43,704 nt of DNA from an uncultured bacterium. Lineage in GTDB: Bacteria; Bacteroidota; Bacteroidia; Sphingobacteriales; Sphingobacteriaceae. Positions 17,498 through 38,550 of this stretch are shown here, in pieces; position 1 is the stretch's first letter, and each line of letters starts with the position of its first letter. Below the pieces are notes generated by a model. It searched no databases, had not been told where the DNA came from, and saw nothing but the letters and a program-made list of their open reading frames with translations. Both the position numbers and the translations under genes were made by a program. The stretch covers positions 1 through 43,704 of the forward strand of contig CAIMAP010000139.1 of the NCBI GenBank assembly GCA_903838995.1, in the 5' to 3' direction.

Positions 17498-18559
17498 ATG
17501 GCTTTCTATTTTATTTCTATCGTTTTATTAGGCTTTATTGCAGTTTATGCATTAATGGCTGTTTGGGCCGAACGCAAGATTTCTGCATGGATTCAAGATA
17601 GGGTAGGGCCAGTTGTGACTGGTAAATACGGTTTATTGCAAACATTTGCCGACATTTTTAAAATGTTGCAAAAGGAAGATATTACCCCAACATTAGCCGA
17701 TAAAAAACTATTTCTTGCAGCGCCCATACTTGTATTTACAGCCGTATTTATGGGTTTTGCTACTATCCCATTTTCGCCAACTTATATCAGCTCTTCCATC
17801 AATATTGGGATATTTTATTTATTAGCGATTGTTTCAATTGAAGTACTTGGCATATTAATGGCGGGTTGGGCTTCTAATAATAAATATGCATTATTAGGAT
17901 CTATTAGATCCATTGCTCAAATTATCTCTTACGAAATCCCTGCCGCCTTGGCCATACTTGCCGTAATCATGCTCTTTCAAACTTTAAATTTGCAAGAGAT
18001 TTGCATGCAACAAGGAATTTTGAGCAAACAAAAGATCTACTTTTTTGGTTTTTGGGAAGTAAGTAAAATTGGTGGCTTTTTTGCTTGGACTATTTTTCAA
18101 GCACCGCATTTATTCATTGCATTTATTATTTATTTTATTGCATCCTTGGCAGAGTGTAATCGAACACCCTTCGATATACCAGAGGCGGAGTCAGAATTAG
18201 TAGCGGGTTTTCATGTGGAGTATACCGGCTTTAAATTCGGCGCTTTATTTTTAGCAGAATATGCGATGATGTTTTTGGTATCGATGATTGCAGCGGTATT
18301 ATTTTTCGGTGGTTGGAATACACCTTTACCAAATTTAGCTTCGTTTGCATTAGCAGATTATACCACTGGAACTTATTGGGGAATTGTTTGGATATTACTC
18401 AAAGCCCTTAGTTTAGTGCTTTTGCAGGTTTGGATTCGTTGGACTTTTCCGCGTTATCGCATGGATCAATTAATGACATTGTGTTGGAAAGTATTGATAC
18501 CACTTTCATTTGTACTGGTTTTGTTTTCTGGAATTTGGAAATTATTTATACTCAATTGA
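17498..18559 (+). CDS. nuoH: NADH-quinone oxidoreductase subunit H
   Basis: This 353-residue inner-membrane protein is the complex I subunit that forms the quinone chamber together with the peripheral arm. Hallmarks are AERKISAWIQDRVGP in the first cytoplasmic loop, GLLQTFADIFKMLQKED, ISYEIPAAL, and the acidic loop NRTPFDIPEAESELVAGFHVEY. The Glu-rich residues of the E-channel are all present. About eight transmembrane helices are visible. Length is slightly above the E. coli protein. It is the first gene of the nuo cluster here; nuoA-G are not upstream, which instead holds skp. The 3' end overlaps the likely nuoI start by four bases. Confidence 0.96.
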   Translation: MAFYFISIVLLGFIAVYALMAVWAERKISAWIQDRVGPVVTGKYGLLQTFADIFKMLQKEDITPTLADKKLFLAAPILVFTAVFMGFATIPFSPTYISSSINIGIFYLLAIVSIEVLGILMAGWASNNKYALLGSIRSIAQIISYEIPAALAILAVIMLFQTLNLQEICMQQGILSKQKIYFFGFWEVSKIGGFFAWTIFQAPHLFIAFIIYFIASLAECNRTPFDIPEAESELVAGFHVEYTGFKFGALFLAEYAMMFLVSMIAAVLFFGGWNTPLPNLASFALADYTTGTYWGIVWILLKALSLVLLQVWIRWTFPRYRMDQLMTLCWKVLIPLSFVLVLFSGIWKLFILN

Positions 18560-19158
18560 GGAAGAAAAAAAATACATATCAATTAATTAAAGGTTTGTTT
18601 AAAGGATTAGCCATTACGCTAAAACATTTTCTCAAGCCTAAAAACCGTGTCGACAAAGGAATTCAATCGGTTGATTATTTTAGTCAAAGAACTGGAAGTT
18701 CCACGCTCCGGTATCCTGCCGATCAAATTCCCGTACCCGAAGTAGGGCGCTATCAATTGGCTATAGAAATGGACGATTGTATTGTATGTGATTTATGTGC
18801 AAAAATTTGCCCAGTAGATTGTATCGATATAGAAGCTATTAAAGCAACAGAAGATATCGGTAAAACATCTGATGGCACTACGAAGCGCTTACATGCAGCC
18901 AAGTTTAGCATCGATATGGGTAAGTGTATGTTTTGTGGATTATGCACAGTTGTATGTCCCACAGAATGTTTGGTCATGACCAACGAATACGATAGAAGTT
19001 TTACTGACCCTCAAGAATTAAATTATGTTTTTGCGGAAATGCCGGAAGCAGAAGCGGCACAAAAACGCGAATTAGCGGCAGCAGCAGAACAAGCTAAAAA
19101 AGAAGCTAAAGCCGCTGCCTTAGCAAATTCTGCAATAAATAAGGAGGGGCAAATATGA
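18556..19158 (+). CDS. nuoI: NADH-quinone oxidoreductase subunit I (2 x 4Fe-4S)
   Basis: This roughly 200-residue peripheral-arm subunit carries two 4Fe-4S clusters that pass electrons toward the N2 cluster. Cys75-x2-Cys78-x2-Cys81-x3-Cys85 and Cys124-x2-Cys127-x2-Cys130-x3-Cys134 are complete. The ORF track starts at 18430, but its first 42 residues are an out-of-frame reading of nuoH. I choose the TTG at 18556, which overlaps the nuoH stop as TTGA and gives a normal N-terminus (MRKKKNTYQLIKGLFKGL). The C-terminal ~35 residues are Ala/Lys/Glu-rich and look like an added helical tail. The nuoJ ATG overlaps its stop. Confidence 0.92.
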   Translation: MRKKKNTYQLIKGLFKGLAITLKHFLKPKNRVDKGIQSVDYFSQRTGSSTLRYPADQIPVPEVGRYQLAIEMDDCIVCDLCAKICPVDCIDIEAIKATEDIGKTSDGTTKRLHAAKFSIDMGKCMFCGLCTVVCPTECLVMTNEYDRSFTDPQELNYVFAEMPEAEAAQKRELAAAAEQAKKEAKAAALANSAINKEGQI

Positions 19159-19655
19159 TTAAGCTCGTATTTTATCTTTTTGCTTTTTTGGCCATTGCTG
19201 CTGCATTGTATGCGGTAAGCACTAAGCAAATTATACGATCGGTATTTGCCATGTTTGCTTGTTTTTTTGCCATCTCTGGTTTGTTGGTTTTTGCGCAATC
19301 CGATTTTATCGCTATTGCTCATTTAATGATTTATGTTGGCGGAATATTAGTGGTGATGGTTTTTGGAATTATGTTATCACAGAAAGCAAGTTTGTCTAAT
19401 GTAGTGCTGCAAAAGAAAAGTATTTCACTACATCAATATTTAGCATTACTGGCCTGTATTGCGCTATTCGTAATTTTAATGTATTTCTTTAATCTGTATG
19501 CGCCAAACACGCCAATACATTATGTTGGAAGCGATATTCAAATATTAGGAATTGCATTGTTAACAAAATATTTATTGCCATTTGAATTAGTGTCTTTGCT
19601 ACTATTGGCTGCATTTATATTTACTGCAATGGTGACTAGAAAAAATAAAATTTAA
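19155..19655 (+). CDS. nuoJ: NADH-quinone oxidoreductase subunit J
   Basis: This 166-residue hydrophobic protein with about five transmembrane helices sits between NuoH and the antiporter-like subunits. The conserved third helix is recognisable as HLMIYVGGILVVMVFGIML, with the YVGGI motif that forms the pi-bulge region. It lacks cofactors. It starts with ATG overlapping the nuoI stop (ATGA) and ends five bases before nuoK. Sequence conservation in this family is low, so the call leans partly on gene order. Confidence 0.92.
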   Translation: MIKLVFYLFAFLAIAAALYAVSTKQIIRSVFAMFACFFAISGLLVFAQSDFIAIAHLMIYVGGILVVMVFGIMLSQKASLSNVVLQKKSISLHQYLALLACIALFVILMYFFNLYAPNTPIHYVGSDIQILGIALLTKYLLPFELVSLLLLAAFIFTAMVTRKNKI

Positions 19656-19660
19656 TAAAA

Positions 19661-19975
19661 ATGGATATCAATATCAGTCATTTTTTATTTATATCTGCTG
19701 CTTTATTTGCCATCGGTTTTTATGCTGCCATTCGCCGTCGTAATATTATTTTGGTTTTAATAGGAATAGAATTAATGGTCAATGCAGCGGTAATAAACCT
19801 AGTGGCATTTGCTAATGTGAATACCAAAGCAAATGCAGCAGACGGAAAACTAATGGCTTTATTTGCCATTGTGTTATCGGCTGCAGCCATTGCGCTTGCG
19901 CTGGCTATTGTAGTTAAAGTGCATCAATATTTTAATACCATCAACCCAGATCAAATAGAAGAATTTAAAAATTAA
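19661..19975 (+). CDS. nuoK: NADH-quinone oxidoreductase subunit K, variant lacking second conserved Glu
   Basis: This 104-residue, three-helix membrane subunit has a normal length. Helix 2 retains the essential Glu37 in LIGIELMVNA (E. coli Glu36). An ungapped comparison of the helix 3 region with the E. coli protein from memory (GQVM...AAAEASIGLAL) places the usual second glutamate (E. coli Glu72) at Ala76 here (VLSAAAIALAL). Substitution of that Glu in E. coli lowers activity only partly, so the enzyme may still pump. The reading frame and neighbours are intact, and its stop codon overlaps the nuoL ATG by one base. Confidence 0.94.
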   Translation: MDINISHFLFISAALFAIGFYAAIRRRNIILVLIGIELMVNAAVINLVAFANVNTKANAADGKLMALFAIVLSAAAIALALAIVVKVHQYFNTINPDQIEEFKN

Positions 19976-21882
19976 TGAATCAAGCCATAACATATCAAGT
20001 GGATTCGCTACTGCAGGTGCTAGATTTTTCTGCCATCGGATTCCTCTTGCCTTTGTTATTTTTTATACTTTTTTCTTTTGCTCGTTTTTCAGAAAAAATA
20101 ATTTATTGGGCTGCAATTGTTGCTATACTTGCATCTTATGGCTCTTTATTTTATTTTTTAAAACCCTTAGTCCATTCGCATCAATATTATATACTCGATT
20201 GGTTTAGCATTGCGCAAAGCAAATTTCAAATCACCTTATTAATAGACGAAACTTGTTTTTGGGTCTTGTCGATGATTCATTTGGTTACCCTTATGGTGAT
20301 TATATTTTCGGGTTATTACATGAAAGCTGAATTGCGTTTCGAAAAATATTTTGCATATATATTATTTTTCTTTACCGCCATGTTTGGCCTAGTGCTGTCA
20401 AATAATTTATTTTTGACTTATATTTTTTGGGAATTAGTGGGATTTGCCTCTTATGCTTTAATTGGTTTTTGGCGAACCAAAGAATCAGCAATTTTGGCAA
20501 ATAAAAAAGCATTTATCATCAATAGAATTGGCGATTTAGGTTTTTTAGCAGCGATTTGTATTTTATTCAATCAGTTTCAAACGCTCAACATACATAGCAT
20601 AGAGGTGATGCTGCAAACTTCTCCAAAAGATTTACCCGCTTTGTATTTCGCCAGTTTTGCCATTATAATAGCGGTGATTGCTAAATCTGCACAGTTTCCT
20701 TTACATGTTTGGTTGCCAGATGCAATGGAAGGCCCTACACCTGTTTCGGCGCTCATACATGCTGCTACCATGGTTATTGCGGGTGTTTACCTCTTATTAA
20801 GAATTACTTTCTTTTTTCCGCCAGAAGCTTTATTATTTCTAAAATACATTGCTATTATCAGTATGGTCATGGCTTCCCTATTTGCAATTGCACAACAGGA
20901 TATCAAAAAAATATTAGCTTACTCTACCATTTCGCAAATAGGATTTATGCTTTTTGCAATTAGTATAGGCAATCAATCGCTCGCTTTATTTCATTTATTA
21001 ACGCATGCTTTTTTCAAAGCGGCCTTATTTTTAACAGCGGGTGTTTTTATTCACGAAAAAAAATCACAAGATATACGAAACTTAAGTGGTGTTGCGCAGC
21101 AACAGCCCATTGCATTTATTGCTTTTAGTATTGCGGCCGCTGCCTTAATCGGCTTGCCATTTACGGCTGCATATTTTTCTAAAGAAGCCATTTTGTTTGC
21201 GGCTATTCAACAACATGGATTAGATGTGTTTAATACATTACTACTTTTTTCTGTGTTATTAACCAGCATTTACATTGCAAGAATTTGGTTTTATTTGTTT
21301 GCAAAAAACAATTCAAGTAATACGCCACGTACAAAATCTGTAGCAATGAATTTGCCAATAATCGTATTGGATATGTTCTCTTTATTTATAGCTTTTTCTG
21401 CTAGTCCATTTCATTTGCAAGCATTTTGGTTTACAATAGTCACCGAAACCATAAATCCAATCTTTAGTATAAGTATTGTATTTTTGAGTGTCCTAGGCAT
21501 TTTAGCTGTCAAATTTATTCCAGCAATTTTATTGATGGATGAAAAAAATACAATGGTATATTTCCTTAAAAACGGTGCTTTTATAGATCGTTTTTATGAA
21601 TTTCTATTTGTAAAACCAATACAACAAATAGCTACCTTGCTTAAATGGTTAGACAAGCATGTGGTAGATGCGCTAGTGAACGGAATTGCCAAATTAGCCA
21701 TTGTGATTGCCAATTGCTCCGACTGGTTTGATCGAAATATAATTGATGGATTGGTTAACCTGATTGCGCTCATCGCCAAACGATTTGGAGACATTATTCG
21801 CATTGCACAAACAGGTAGAGTGCAAACTTATTTTTTATTGGCATTGATGTTGATGGCAATGGTGGCATGGTTTATTTATTAA
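19975..21882 (+). CDS. nuoL: NADH-quinone oxidoreductase subunit L
   Basis: This 635-residue antiporter-like subunit is at the far end of the complex I membrane arm. Key residues are present: Glu in FWELVGFASYALIGFW, Lys in AKSAQFPLHVWLPDAMEGP, the PVSALIHAATMVIAGVYL helix, and Lys in AAYFSKEAIL. After the 14-helix core, the C-terminal region (about residues 520-610) forms the long amphipathic helix running along the arm, and a final membrane helix anchors it (LLALMLMAMVAWFIY). Length matches the family. Confidence 0.96.
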   Translation: MNQAITYQVDSLLQVLDFSAIGFLLPLLFFILFSFARFSEKIIYWAAIVAILASYGSLFYFLKPLVHSHQYYILDWFSIAQSKFQITLLIDETCFWVLSMIHLVTLMVIIFSGYYMKAELRFEKYFAYILFFFTAMFGLVLSNNLFLTYIFWELVGFASYALIGFWRTKESAILANKKAFIINRIGDLGFLAAICILFNQFQTLNIHSIEVMLQTSPKDLPALYFASFAIIIAVIAKSAQFPLHVWLPDAMEGPTPVSALIHAATMVIAGVYLLLRITFFFPPEALLFLKYIAIISMVMASLFAIAQQDIKKILAYSTISQIGFMLFAISIGNQSLALFHLLTHAFFKAALFLTAGVFIHEKKSQDIRNLSGVAQQQPIAFIAFSIAAAALIGLPFTAAYFSKEAILFAAIQQHGLDVFNTLLLFSVLLTSIYIARIWFYLFAKNNSSNTPRTKSVAMNLPIIVLDMFSLFIAFSASPFHLQAFWFTIVTETINPIFSISIVFLSVLGILAVKFIPAILLMDEKNTMVYFLKNGAFIDRFYEFLFVKPIQQIATLLKWLDKHVVDALVNGIAKLAIVIANCSDWFDRNIIDGLVNLIALIAKRFGDIIRIAQTGRVQTYFLLALMLMAMVAWFIY

Positions 21883-21899
21883 CTTATTAAAGATTTAAA

Positions 21900-23528
21900 A
21901 TGAATAATTGGTTGTCTATTTTAATTTTCTTACCGATTGCAGCTGCATTAATTTTGTTGCTATTACCTAAGCGTGCATCAAATGTATTTAGGCCGGTAAC
22001 CATTGTTATTAGTCTTTTACAGACACTCATTGCAACTTATTTATATAGCCAATACTTAAAAAATCCACAAGGTTATCATTTTGTAGAACGTGCAGATTGG
22101 ATTAATTTAAATTTGGGAACTTTTGGACGTTTAAATATTGATTATTTCTTAGCCGTTGATGGATTAAGTATTGGATTGCTATTGTTGTCGGCATTTGTCA
22201 TGTTTATTGCGGCTATTGCTTCTAACGAAATTAAGAAAGATCCTAAAGCATATTATACCTTGTTTTTATTATTGAGTGCGGCTATTATGGGCGTATTTTG
22301 CGCACTCGATTTTTTCTTGTTTTATGTGTTTTATGAATTGATGTTATTGCCAATGTATTTCTTAATTGGCATGTGGGGTGGTCCAAACAGAGAATACGCT
22401 TCTATCAAATTTTTCTTGTACACTTTATTTGGATCTATATTTATGTTATTAGTAATGATCGGACTTTACTTTTCGGTCATCGATCCAGTAACAGGCGAAC
22501 ATACTTTTAATATGCTGTATATGATGGATGCAGCAAACTATACGAAAGACAGTTATTTCTCTATTTTCTCTACTGATGCATTATTATTTCATTATCCCGT
22601 AAGGTTCTTAGGCTTTATTGTTTTATTTATTGCATTTGCGATTAAAATACCTACTATACCCTTACATACTTGGTTACCCGATGCCCATGTGGAGGCGCCA
22701 ACACCTGTATCTATTATACTTGCAGGGGTGCTCTTAAAAATTGGTGGATATGGAATTATCAGAATTTGCTACGGAATTTTTCCAGAAGCAGCTATTTATT
22801 TTTCTTATTGGATAGGATTAATTGGCGTGGTCTCTATTTTATATGGCGCATTTATAGCATTGGCATCTACGGATTTAAAACGCATGATTGCTTATTCCTC
22901 TATTTCACATATGGGATTTGTTATTTTAGGAATTGCTTCGCTTACTTCGGAAGGAGTGAACGGTGCTATTTTTCAAATGATTAGTCACGGGGTACTTTCT
23001 ACGATGCTATTTTATTTAGTAGGCGTTATTTATCTAAGGGTTCAAGACCGCGAAATTGCGGCGTTCAGAGGACTGGCACAACCTATGCCTCGTTATACTT
23101 TATTTGTAGTAATTGCATTTTTTGCTTCTTTAGGATTGCCTGGCTTGTCTGGTTTTATTGGCGAAGCATTTACCCTTATCGGTGCATTTAAATCGGCTTC
23201 TGTCAATGCCTTATTGCCAAGAGGCTTTGCCATTTTAGCTTCGGTTGGCATTTTAATTGGTGCGGCTTATTTCTTATGGACTTTACAACGCATGTTTTTT
23301 GGAGCGCCGCGTTTCAAAGGGGCTCAAGAATGGCATTTAAAACTAAAAGATTTAACAGCAACAGAATATCTGGTATTAATCCCCTTAGCCTTGATCACCA
23401 TTTTATTAGGCATTTTCCCTTCTTTATTATTTGATGCCAGTAATAATACTATCAATGCTTGGGTTCACGAAACTTGGATACATGGCATTGCAAATTTAAA
23501 AAGCATGCAATCTTTATTAAAATTTTAA
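21900..23528 (+). CDS. nuoM: NADH-quinone oxidoreductase subunit M
   Basis: This 542-residue antiporter-like subunit belongs to complex I. The conserved Glu in FYELMLLPMYFLIGMWGG and the Lys pair in AIKIPTIPLHTWLPDAHVEAP and LLKIGGYG are intact, as is the C-terminal Glu in GFIGEAFTLIGAF. About 14 transmembrane helices are visible. It lies 17 bases after nuoL and four before nuoN. Length is slightly above the E. coli subunit, with an insertion of about 30 residues after helix 5 (DPVTGEHTFNMLYM...). Confidence 0.96.
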   Translation: MNNWLSILIFLPIAAALILLLLPKRASNVFRPVTIVISLLQTLIATYLYSQYLKNPQGYHFVERADWINLNLGTFGRLNIDYFLAVDGLSIGLLLLSAFVMFIAAIASNEIKKDPKAYYTLFLLLSAAIMGVFCALDFFLFYVFYELMLLPMYFLIGMWGGPNREYASIKFFLYTLFGSIFMLLVMIGLYFSVIDPVTGEHTFNMLYMMDAANYTKDSYFSIFSTDALLFHYPVRFLGFIVLFIAFAIKIPTIPLHTWLPDAHVEAPTPVSIILAGVLLKIGGYGIIRICYGIFPEAAIYFSYWIGLIGVVSILYGAFIALASTDLKRMIAYSSISHMGFVILGIASLTSEGVNGAIFQMISHGVLSTMLFYLVGVIYLRVQDREIAAFRGLAQPMPRYTLFVVIAFFASLGLPGLSGFIGEAFTLIGAFKSASVNALLPRGFAILASVGILIGAAYFLWTLQRMFFGAPRFKGAQEWHLKLKDLTATEYLVLIPLALITILLGIFPSLLFDASNNTINAWVHETWIHGIANLKSMQSLLKF

Positions 23529-23532
23529 GCGG

Positions 23533-25044
23533 ATGGAATTGTATCAAACTTTACAATCTTTAGTGACGAGCAATAATCTGAGTTGGAAATTTTTAATTCC
23601 AGAATATAGTTTATTATTTTTCTTTTTATTGGGTTTGTTTATTGATTTATTTTTCAAAAATAAAAAATGGATAACGGTCTTAATGTTAGTAGGGGTTAGC
23701 TTTTCGGGGTTTTTAACTTTTCAACAAATTTCTGCTAGCATTGAAATCCAACAACTATTTAACGGCATGTTGGTTTTAAGTAATAAAATAATTGTATTCA
23801 AATTATTGATTACATTGGTAGTATGCTTGTTTATTATTTTTGCAAGCACCGATGATCGCATCAAAAAACAAAACACAGCAGAATATTTTTATTTAGCGCC
23901 ACTTTTTTTAATTGCATTAAATATGCTCTGTATGTCTGCGCATATGTTAACCATTTATTTAAGTGTAGAAATGGTTTCGCTATTTTCTTATGGTTATGTT
24001 GCCTTGTCAATAAAAGATAAAAGCAATGCCGAATCTGGCATGAAATATATTTTGTTTGGCTTATTGGCTTCGGCTCTTTTATTGTACGGAATCTCCTTGA
24101 TGTATGGCTTTGCAGGCACCCTTTCTTTGCAAGATCCTCATTTCTTAGCTTGGTTTGCAAAAGCGCCAATGCCGATTATTGCTTTGAGTATTGGTTTAAT
24201 GATGGCTGGATTTTTATTTAAAATAGCTGCTGCGCCATTTCATTTTTATGCACCCGATGTTTATCAAGGAACTTCGTCTACTACATTGGTACTATTAAGT
24301 GTGGCTCCAAAAATTGCAGGTTATGCATTGTTTGCTAATTTTCTGGGATTCTTTTCGTTTAAAATTTTTAATCAAGTTTTATTTTGGCCCATGTATAATT
24401 GGGAAACTTTTTTAAGTGTAATTGCCATCATGACCTTAGTCATTGGTAGTTTTGTGGCTTTGTCTCAAACAAACATTAAACGTTTAATGGCTTATGCAGG
24501 AATTGCACAAACTGGTTTTCTCTTAATGGGTTTGATTGGCTATACCTCCATAGGAGTAATCGCTTTGCTGTTTTATTTATTGGCCTATTTATTAATGAAT
24601 ACGGCGGCATTTATGCTTATCAGTTATTTTGAACAGCAGCACGAAGCATATGAATTAGCAGATTATAAAGGCTTGGTTAGAAAATCTCCATTGGCTTCTA
24701 TTTTATTGGTAGTTGTATTTGCATCCTTCATTGGTTTGCCACCACTTGTTGGCTTTACCGGAAAATTTTTATTGTTTTCGGCGAGTTACCAAGCTTATGT
24801 CGCTTCTGCTAATCCAGCAATTTTAATCACCATCATTACCGCTGCAATCGCATCAATTGTTTCTTTATTTTATTATTTTATTATCATTCGAAACATGTTC
24901 ATGCAAGAAGCCACTTGGGTTAAGGTGAATAAAGAAGAACAAAATATTTTATATTTATTGGTATTGCCTTTGATTTTGGCCATTATTTATTTCGGAATTT
25001 TGCCCTCTAACATAATCAGTTATATCCAAAGCATTATTGCTTAA
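23533..25044 (+). CDS. nuoN: NADH-quinone oxidoreductase subunit N
   Basis: This 503-residue antiporter-like subunit is the one nearest NuoK. The Glu of IYLSVEMVSLFSYGYVAL, the Lys residues of LFKIAAAPFHFYAPDVYQG and VAPKIAGYALF, and the Lys of GFTGKFLLFSASY are kept, so the proton path residues are complete. It ends the nuo operon. The 96 bases after it hold no obvious terminator hairpin but contain the promoter of the purF-like gene. Confidence 0.95.
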   Translation: MELYQTLQSLVTSNNLSWKFLIPEYSLLFFFLLGLFIDLFFKNKKWITVLMLVGVSFSGFLTFQQISASIEIQQLFNGMLVLSNKIIVFKLLITLVVCLFIIFASTDDRIKKQNTAEYFYLAPLFLIALNMLCMSAHMLTIYLSVEMVSLFSYGYVALSIKDKSNAESGMKYILFGLLASALLLYGISLMYGFAGTLSLQDPHFLAWFAKAPMPIIALSIGLMMAGFLFKIAAAPFHFYAPDVYQGTSSTTLVLLSVAPKIAGYALFANFLGFFSFKIFNQVLFWPMYNWETFLSVIAIMTLVIGSFVALSQTNIKRLMAYAGIAQTGFLLMGLIGYTSIGVIALLFYLLAYLLMNTAAFMLISYFEQQHEAYELADYKGLVRKSPLASILLVVVFASFIGLPPLVGFTGKFLLFSASYQAYVASANPAILITIITAAIASIVSLFYYFIIIRNMFMQEATWVKVNKEEQNILYLLVLPLILAIIYFGILPSNIISYIQSIIA

Positions 25045-35124: not shown

Positions 35125-35158
35125 AAAAAAAAAGAGCGCTTTTGGGCGCTCCTTTTTT
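35125..35158 (-). terminator. Rho-independent terminator of hppA
   Basis: A gagcgc/gcgctc stem with a six-base loop is flanked by nine A on one side and seven T on the other, so it can work on both strands. On the minus strand it lies 16 bases after the hppA stop and separates hppA from the permease gene. Confidence 0.8.
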
Positions 35159-35174
35159 TATATCTTCTAAAAGA

Positions 35175-37631
35175 TTATTTTTCCTCGTTTGTTGATTTAC
35201 TTGCTTCGGTTTTAGCACTGCAATTAGCTTTGTCTTTACAATTTGCTTTGTCTTTACAATTAGCTTTGTCTTTACAAGCTTCCGAACTTCCGCTGCATTC
35301 CGACATATTAATGCCTTTATGGGCTTCTATCATTTTGATGCAAGCTGCTTTTTGTTCTGGTGTGCATTTCATGCTATCGCAATAAGCGGCACATGCTTCA
35401 GGAGTCATGCTCATGCATTTAGTTAAATCGCAATTACCCATATCAACAGAATCCATGCCTGCACACATTTCTGTTTGTGCATGACAATTCATTTCCTTGC
35501 TTTCTGCATTAACTACTGCAATATAAGGTGCGATTACTAATGAAACAATCGACATTAATTTAATTAAAATATTCATCGATGGTCCAGAAGTATCTTTGAA
35601 TGGATCACCTACGGTATCACCAGTAACAGATGCTTTATGTGGTTCTGATTTTTTGTAATACATTTCGCCATTAATCATCACACCTTTTTCGAAAGATTTT
35701 TTAGCGTTATCCCAAGCACCACCAGCATTTGATTGGAAGATTCCCATCAATACACCAGAAACAGTTACACCTGCTAATAAACCACCTAATACCTCAGGGC
35801 CAAAAATAAAACCAACAAGAATAGGAGTGATCAAAGCAATGGCACCTGGCATCATCATTTCGCGGATAGATGCTTTGGTAGAAATAGCTACACATTTTTC
35901 GTATTCAGGTTTTGCTTTGTATTCCATAATTCCAGGAATTTCTCTAAACTGACGACGCACTTCTTGAACCATATCCATGGCTGCTTTACCAACTGCTTGA
36001 ATACACAATGCAGAGAAAATAAATGGAATCATTCCACCTACAAATAAACCAGCTAATACATTTGCTTTGTAAATATCAATAGCATCAATTCCAGCAATAC
36101 CAACAAATGCTGCAAATAAAGCCAATGAAGTTAATGCTGCAGAAGCAATGGCAAAACCTTTACCAGTTGCTGCAGTTGTGTTTCCTACGGCATCTAAATT
36201 GTCTGTACGCTCACGCACTTCGGGAGGTAATTGACTCATCTCTGCAATACCACCTGCATTATCTGCAATTGGTCCAAATGCATCGATCGCTAATTGCATA
36301 GCTGTAGTAGCCATCATACCTGCAGCAGCAATGGCTACGCCATATAAACCTGCGAAATAATACGAAGCCATGATACCAGCAGCCAATGTTAAAATTGGAA
36401 TAACAGTTGATTTCATTCCTACAGATAAACCACCAATTATATTAGTAGCATGACCAGTAGATGATTGTTGAATGATAGACATAACAGGCGCTTTGCCCAT
36501 TGCAGTATAATATTCTGTAACAATACTCATGATGGCACCAACTAAAGTTCCAACAACAATTGCATAGAATACATTTAATTTTGTAAACTGATAACCTCTT
36601 AAGCTTAATGTTTCTGGTAACATCCAATTAACAATAAAATAAGAAGCAGCAACGGTCAATAACATAGAAGACCAGTTACCAATATTTAATGCATTTTGTA
36701 CACTCGATTTTTCATCTTTAATAGTTACAAACCAAGTTCCAACAATTGAAAATAAAATACCTAATCCACAAATTACCATGGGTAATAAAATAGGAGACAT
36801 GCCATTAAAATTATCGCTACTTGCGTTAATTTCTTGACCTAACACCATTGTTGCTAAAATAGTAGCTACATAAGATCCGAATAAATCGGCACCCATACCT
36901 GCTACGTCACCTACGTTATCACCTACGTTATCTGCAATAGTTGCAGGGTTACGTACGTCATCTTCTGGAATTCCAGCTTCTACTTTACCAACTAGATCGG
37001 CACCTACATCGGCAGCTTTAGTATAAATACCACCACCCACACGCGCAAATAATGCAATAGACTCCGCACCTAAAGAAAAACCTGTTAGTACTTCGATTGC
37101 TGTGGTAACAGTGTTTGCGCCTAAATCAGCAAAGATGCTTAAGAAAGCGATAAACAAACCGCCTAATCCTAATATAGCTAAACCAGCAACACCTAAGCCC
37201 ATTACAGTACCACCGGTAAATGAAACTTTTAAAGCTTGTTTTAAACTAGTACGAGCAGCTTGTGTGGTACGAACATTCGCTTTAGTCGCTACTTTCATAC
37301 CAATATAACCAGCGGTAGCCGAAAATACAGCACCGATAATAAACGAGATAGAGATAATCCAGCTAGAATGAATGGCTTTGCCATTTACTTCGTGGATTGT
37401 TCCAGAATAAGCCAATAATGCTGCTGCAAAAACAACAAAAATGCTCAATACTTTCCATTCTGCTTTTAAGAAAGCCATTGCGCCATCTGCAATATAACCA
37501 GCTAATTCGGTCATTTTTGCATCGCCAGCTTCTTGTTTAGAGACCCATGCGCTTTTGATAGCCATTACAATAAGGCCAATAATGCCTAATGCAGGAATAA
37601 AATAAATTAAATTGCTTTGTAAAAAATCCAT
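35175..37631 (-). CDS. hppA: Membrane-bound ion-pumping pyrophosphatase with Cys-rich C-terminal tail
   Basis: This 818-residue integral membrane pump uses pyrophosphate hydrolysis to move H+ or Na+. The PPi-binding [11 protein letters not shown] is at 208-218, followed by [37 protein letters not shown] at 483-492 has Ala at the position where K+-independent enzymes carry Lys, so K+-stimulated activity is expected. Sixteen helices are likely, the last being [17 protein letters not shown]. After it, about 110 extra residues (from about 709) contain 13 cysteines and a threefold KDKANC repeat; ordinary family members end near the last helix. With canonical topology this tail faces the periplasm. 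Which ion is pumped cannot be decided by eye. The gene has its own consensus promoter and terminator. Confidence 0.95.
35221..35274 (-). repeat. Three 18-bp tandem repeats inside hppA
   Basis: Three adjacent 18-bp units (caattagctttgtcttta, with one a-to-t change in the middle copy) encode KDKANC three times in the pyrophosphatase tail. The unit length is a multiple of three, so copy-number change would keep the frame. The near identity points to recent slippage-type expansion. Confidence 0.9.
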
Positions 37632-37911: not shown

Positions 37912-38550
37912 CTATTTTAATTTGTTTTTAAATGCTTTTTGAAACTTTTCAACTTTAGGTCTGATCACAAATTGGCAATAAGGTTGGTTGCCGTTTTGGT
38001 TGAAATAATTTTGATGATAATTTTCTGCTTCGTAGAAAACTTCCGCCGGCACAATGGTGGTTACAATTTCATTTTCGAAAGCGCCTGATTTTTGCAATTC
38101 ATTTTTATAAAATTCGGCTGTTGATTGTTGTTCTGCAGAATGATAAAAAATAACCGAACGGTATTGTGTACCCACATCACCGCCTTGTTTATTTAAAGTG
38201 GTTGGGTCATGACTTTCCCAAAATGCTTGCAATAAAGTTTTATATGTTACTTTTTTGGGATCAAAAATAATTTGACAAACTTCTGCATGGCCGGTGGCTC
38301 CGGTGCAAACTTCTTCGTAAGTTGGGTTTGCGCTTGTGCCTCCTTCGTAGCCAGATTTCAGGGAAACTACACCTTCAATTTGCTGAAAAATGGCTTCTAC
38401 ACACCAAAAACAGCCAGCTCCAAAGGTAGCGGTGTCGGTCATTTGCGGGTTTTCGATTTCTTGGTTCATGGCAATTTTTTTTGCATTCGTTGGAACAGAT
38501 GTACATCCCAAAATAACCGTTAACAATACAATTGGGAGAATTATTTTCAT
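37912..38550 (-). CDS. msrA: Peptide methionine sulfoxide reductase MsrA, lipoprotein form
   Basis: This 212-residue enzyme reduces methionine-S-sulfoxide in proteins. The catalytic motif GAGCFWCVEA has Cys47 as nucleophile with an extra Cys50, and the QPYC segment near the C-terminus provides a likely recycling cysteine. GYEGG, TGHAEVCQIIFDP and ESHDPTTLNKQGGDVGTQYRS are family blocks. The N-terminus is a lipoprotein signal (MKIILPIVLLTVILGC) with a lipobox at Cys16, so the protein should be anchored in the periplasm or outer membrane rather than cytosolic. It follows the TonB receptor gene with a two-base gap, so the two are co-transcribed. Confidence 0.93.
   Translation of the reverse strand: MKIILPIVLLTVILGCTSVPTNAKKIAMNQEIENPQMTDTATFGAGCFWCVEAIFQQIEGVVSLKSGYEGGTSANPTYEEVCTGATGHAEVCQIIFDPKKVTYKTLLQAFWESHDPTTLNKQGGDVGTQYRSVIFYHSAEQQSTAEFYKNELQKSGAFENEIVTTIVPAEVFYEAENYHQNYFNQNGNQPYCQFVIRPKVEKFQKAFKNKLK

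Follow-up and report, generated by a model that had tools for sequence, protein, structure and literature searches.

The usual picture of membrane-integral pyrophosphatases (M-PPases) is that of a bare pump of 16 helices, while many Bacteroidia carry, as described here, a conserved and selected domain on what is probably the exit side of the enzyme. The glutamate positions that characterize the M-PPase subtypes were taken from PMC6882861 and PMC10897367. Loop 5-6 and the site that binds pyrophosphate face the cytoplasm (PMC5150537), and an OmpA-like C-terminal domain of the Paucibacter M-PPase has been reported in a review (PMC11210485).

In the present work an M-PPase gene (hppA) was analysed in a window of 43,704 nucleotides, the whole stretch of DNA considered, from an uncultured freshwater bacterium of the Sphingobacteriaceae (contig CAIMAP010000139.1). 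The enzyme itself is already known. The module attached to it, predicted to be periplasmic, is conserved, probably binds metal, and was not found described in a search of open-licence papers. Without an annotated family, such a module is passed over in records named only 'sodium-translocating pyrophosphatase'.

The hppA gene and its core enzyme

The gene, its diagnostic residue, its last membrane helix and its downstream signal are as follows.

35175..37631, minus strand: hppA, membrane pyrophosphatase with a C-terminal extension, 818 aa (continuous ORF; Pfam H_PPase 891 bits; motifs)
37062..37064, minus strand: Glu190, the semi-conserved glutamate at 5.43, as in the Flavobacterium johnsoniae-type H+ pump (alignment to 4A01/5GPJ and motif table)
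35520..35618, minus strand: 16th (last) transmembrane helix, residues 672-704 (AlphaFold2 full-length model with 16 long helices; end of homology to solved structures)
35125..35159 (about), minus strand: intrinsic terminator-like hairpin downstream of hppA (arms GAGCGC/GCGCTC between A/T runs)

The H_PPase profile (PF03030) gives a full-length match of 891 bits (positions 1-645) and the catalytic motif lies at residues 208-218, which places it among the membrane-integral pyrophosphatases. Its motifs are GAES at 5.43, no Glu at 6.53/6.57, and GNTTAA, and the same holds for all HppA cores examined whose motifs were readable (Glu at 5.43 as GAES or GSES, none at 6.53/6.57, GNTTAA). Ala at 12.46, within GNTTAA, belongs with these Glu positions to the K+-dependent E5.43 subtype, and the window HppA has it. 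Judged by these motifs, the enzyme is predicted to be a K+-dependent, H+-pumping pyrophosphatase of the E5.43 type (Flavobacterium johnsoniae subtype), and its NCBIfam name, 'sodium-translocating', is not to be taken literally.

The core aligns with solved M-PPases up to residue 706, and the solved structures themselves end about 10-20 residues beyond the matching point. The preliminary description set the tail against ordinary M-PPases, which end near the last helix. For this phylum, however, the tail is nothing unusual: it recurs on Bacteroidia HppA, and relatives have YceI, OmpA or short tails instead. The terminator that it placed closely after the gene was recovered as a hairpin with T-runs.

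A Cys-rich extension under purifying selection

Beyond the 16th helix the protein continues with the following elements.

35178..35519, minus strand: C-terminal tail, residues 705-818, with 13 Cys and 9 Met, predicted to be periplasmic (composition; topology; YceI/OmpA fusions in relatives)
35340..35432, minus strand: conserved six-Cys module, 31 residues, C-x4-C-x7-C-x3-C-x4-C-x7-C (exact pattern match; comparison of distinct tails)
35223..35276, minus strand: three tandem 18-bp units, TGTAAAGACAAAGC[T/A]AAT, encoding CKDKAN (KDKANC repeat) (sequence; relatives)

The tail comprises 114 residues with 13 Cys, as against 3 Cys in the 704-residue core, a count with a binomial probability of about 4e-15 at the Cys frequency of the core and 2e-10 at a frequency of 1%. 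In nine probably exported proteins encoded elsewhere in the window, Cys averages 0.6%. In comparison with the same-genus genomes G005 and G002, whose whole HppA proteins share 99% and 95% identity with that of the window, dN/dS was 0.028 in the tail and 0.012 in the core for the former, and 0.088 and 0.027 for the latter, while indels within the tail preserve the reading frame. The tail is a genuine coding sequence under purifying selection, and the in-frame indels together with the low dN/dS rule out read-through, a frameshift or a misread end of hppA, as the preliminary description had maintained.

The threefold KDKANC repeat, also noted there, consists of three 18-bp units that differ at one base, and two identical tandem hexapeptides did not occur in any of 20,000 composition shuffles of the tail. 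The emphasis given there to the repeat needs partial correction: it is the least conserved part, absent from most relatives, with three copies in the window and two in G005 and G002, and the conserved unit is the six-Cys module located N-terminally of it. The number of repeats indeed varies among species of the genus. Such variation, along with the strong variation in length and sequence outside the module, would suit a low-complexity extension that arose through repeat slippage and is tolerated as nearly neutral. As an account of the whole tail, this is highly improbable, given dN/dS values of 0.03-0.09, which largely refute it for the module, as well as the confidently predicted fold of the module and its presence in both branches of the deepest division among the HppA cores examined (see below). 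For the KDKANC repeat alone, neutral slippage may apply.

The six-Cys module

The consensus of the module, C-[DE]-[ML]-x-K-C-x2-M-[TS]-x-[ED]-x-C-A-x-[YM]-C-D-x3-C-[TS]-x3-K-x2-C, is built of two pseudo-repeats, CDxxKC-x7-C. In the window tail the exact Cys pattern directly follows the HppA core. Among 96 distinct tails, 93 exact copies were counted, with ten tails holding two and 13 holding none, mostly due to the substitution of one Cys; all six Cys are retained in 84 of 100 distinct module sequences. A second pattern, C-x3-C-x3-C-x5-C-x3-C-x3-C, follows the module in 33/96 tails and often contains CKTKEEC, and the CKDKANC repeat of the window looks like an expanded form of this second hexad. 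Several Flavobacterium tails (L094, L104, L122, L129 and others) have a conserved Cys-free segment after the Cys module, VRVEITNTNGKAKATVTTT..TFEGTEAEVKAKVEALK, with no Pfam match above its cut-off.

In an AlphaFold2 model of the tail based on 53 sequences, tail residues ~27-71 (about 35313-35447) form a block of three short helices with pLDDT 80-90, and confidence is low outside it. The full-length model (mean pLDDT 67) has 16 long helices and, again, helices at 736-771. The window tail had no Pfam match at E up to 10, also with respect to OmpA- or YceI-type C-terminal domains, and the 53 tails gave no consistent match in Pfam (E up to 1) and NCBIfam, in agreement with the earlier expectation that the tail is not an annotated domain of the enzyme. 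The tail profile matched none of the PDB sequences, and a Foldseek search of the tail model against PDB yielded nothing (best E 6.4). No known Cys-rich metal-binding domain was recognized in the window tail by any of these searches (Pfam, NCBIfam, PDB, Foldseek).

Distribution of the module

The tail profile matches 55 of the 395 genomes of the class, spread over 22 of 197 genera. A phylum sample of 297 genomes yielded no match beyond the class. G595 belongs to what is probably Flavobacterium, and 84/121 genomes of its genus were matched by a profile that also spans the Cys-free Flavobacterium segment, so that some of the weak matches may lack the module. Scanning of genome contigs yielded 80 loci, including Flavobacterium palustre, F. 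sufflavum, F. seoulense, F. flevense and many lake MAGs. Every module-bearing ORF in the fetched loci contains the HppA core, or else the last helix of that core, and standalone copies were not found in the own genome or in the order, class and phylum samples; a second match within the own genome, to a pyruvate dehydrogenase E2-like protein, was rejected as a chance match. Three loci (L100, L116, L121) have clearly Bacteroidota-type hppA in MAG records that bear the names Candidatus Nitrotoga and Bifidobacterium breve in their titles; the titles or bins look wrong.

Within the family of the window organism, the module is absent from the sampled genomes outside its own genus. Six same-family HppA tails (L008, L010, L012, L014, L029, L031) have an alternative short Cys-free form, KKEIRV..DSLGN..DTI..TDTL, and in L007 this form is followed by a Cys-rich stretch. 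In a tree of HppA cores, whose sampling is biased towards carriers and in which the window row was removed as a duplicate (its genus being represented by L003 and L004), both branches at the deepest split include carriers of the module. This distribution suggests that the module is an old feature of Bacteroidia HppA, repeatedly lost or replaced. The scope thereby widens from the tail of a single enzyme to a Bacteroidia-wide module, one of several extra domains found at the same end of HppA.

Membrane side and other domains at the same position

The tail is strongly inferred to lie on the periplasmic side, as had been proposed from the usual topology. Since loop 5-6 is cytoplasmic and connects helices 5 and 6 in the 16-helix model, even-numbered helices would run outwards and helix 16 would end outside. 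The extra domains of relatives point in the same direction: a YceI domain directly follows the same last helix in five of them (L071, L158, L159, L172, L173; Pfam E 5e-19 to 3e-45), and an OmpA-family domain does so in one Bacteroidia relative (L157:397-1029, minus strand; E 4e-16). Both YceI and OmpA are periplasmic or envelope families, the former isoprenoid-binding and the latter peptidoglycan-binding. Together with the OmpA-like domain in Paucibacter, these fusions suggest that the C-terminus of HppA serves generally as a periplasmic port for fused domains.

The same fusions, including the Paucibacter one, are what would be expected if the tail were a docking or tethering segment, with the Cys module as one adaptor among domains whose targets are the cell wall, lipids or partner proteins. 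We regard this explanation as unlikely, as a Cys- and Met-rich helical module is unlike known wall- or lipid-binding domains, and neither a conserved gene neighbour of hppA nor a partner was found. The neighbourhoods consist of generic genes, with no metal, redox or Dsb theme. In the window, an MsrA-like peptide methionine sulfoxide reductase with a lipoprotein-type signal (37912-38550, minus strand) lies just upstream of hppA with its Met-rich, presumably periplasmic tail; such a gene is not in the recurrent neighbour clusters listed. Elsewhere in the window (17498-25044), a complex I cluster begins at NuoH, immediately preceded by two Skp-like chaperone genes, and the earlier nuo genes are absent from the window.

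Metal or disulfides

Of the metal, disulfide or redox roles suggested at the outset, metal binding is plausible and preferred, while stable disulfides are less likely. Neither DsbB nor VKOR was found in the genome of the window (99.4% complete). DsbB was missing in all 55 module-bearing genomes and VKOR in 52 of them, and with VKOR in 3/55 carriers against 28/395 genomes of the class overall, an association of the module with VKOR was rejected. Across 61 tails the number of Cys was even in 26 and odd in 35, and the tails contain 13% Cys, 9% Met and 3% His, several of them ending in His runs. Of 16 variant modules, 10 had lost the Cys at position 2 and no other, with V, I, M or Y in its place every time, whereas positions 1, 4, 5 and 6 were seldom lost, counts that are biased by search patterns demanding some of positions 4-6. 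Because of the scarcity of DsbB and VKOR, the lack of an even bias in Cys number, the single Cys losses and the richness in Met and His, soft-metal (Cu/Zn) thiolate binding by the tail is favoured here over fixed disulfides.

These observations weigh at the same time against the module as a disulfide-locked periplasmic mini-domain, in which three disulfides would make a rigid knob that resists proteases, or would act as a redox switch at the exit face; single loss of position 2 is the rule. The constant spacing of the six Cys within two pseudo-repeats, the exported location and the paired losses in L150 (positions 2 and 3) and L144 (positions 1 and 5) do speak for such a structure, which we consider doubtful. 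Disulfides can also form without DsbB or VKOR, as reported for a Bacteroidetes CuZnSOD that quickly forms its own (PMC8382915). Further points against metal binding are that the searches above matched the tail to no known metal-binding family, that the genes around hppA lack a metal or redox theme, that Met at module positions 3, 9 and 21 may serve hydrophobic packing, and that the module is missing from sampled genomes of other genera in the family.

Our preferred, if tentative, explanation combines an E5.43-type H+-PPase with a periplasmic, Bacteroidia-specific three-helix mini-domain of six Cys, probably metal-binding, and a variable disordered Cys-rich fringe. The module cysteines would largely stay thiols and bind a soft metal, e.g., Cu(I) or Zn(II), assisted by Met and terminal His. 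By keeping metal on the exit side of the pump, the module would buffer or sense periplasmic metal and might protect or tune the pump. Changes in KDKANC copy number would alter the count of weak extra ligand sites and leave the folded module untouched. For the metal-binding function as such, the chances are about even. In a broader form, which seems quite unlikely, the periplasmic end of Bacteroidia H+-PPases would be a general sensor/adaptor port, where a Cys module responsive to metal or redox state (or YceI/OmpA in its stead) would signal periplasmic conditions to the PPi-driven pump and adjust its activity. If the module does bind metal or sense redox state, it would provide exit-side control of a primary proton pump, linking pyrophosphate energy to metal stress in the envelope.

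Comparison with known systems

DUF326-type and copper-storage Cys-rich repeats are helical and have been proposed or shown to bind copper. They resemble the HppA module in being both helical and Cys-rich, but differ in Cys spacing, and were not among the Pfam families obtained for the 53 tails (E up to 1). The K+-dependent H+-PPase of the Flavobacterium johnsoniae type (PMC6882861, PMC10897367) has the same motifs in its core (GAES at 5.43, GNTTAA, and Glu at neither 6.53 nor 6.57) and likewise 16 helices; however, that type is defined by the core only, and the portions consulted of these papers do not describe a Cys module for it. The M-PPases of Paucibacter and relatives (PMC11210485) likewise have an extra domain of about 110 residues past the last helix, but it has an OmpA-like fold instead of a Cys module, and those enzymes are K+-insensitive and belong to Burkholderiales. 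The lumenal loop 2-3 of the plant vacuolar H+-PPase (PMC8657866) is, like the Bacteroidia module, lineage-specific and on the exit side, with a suggested role in lumen sensing and with a Cys-Cys disulfide, yet it is a loop of 14-19 residues between helices 2 and 3 and not a C-terminal domain.
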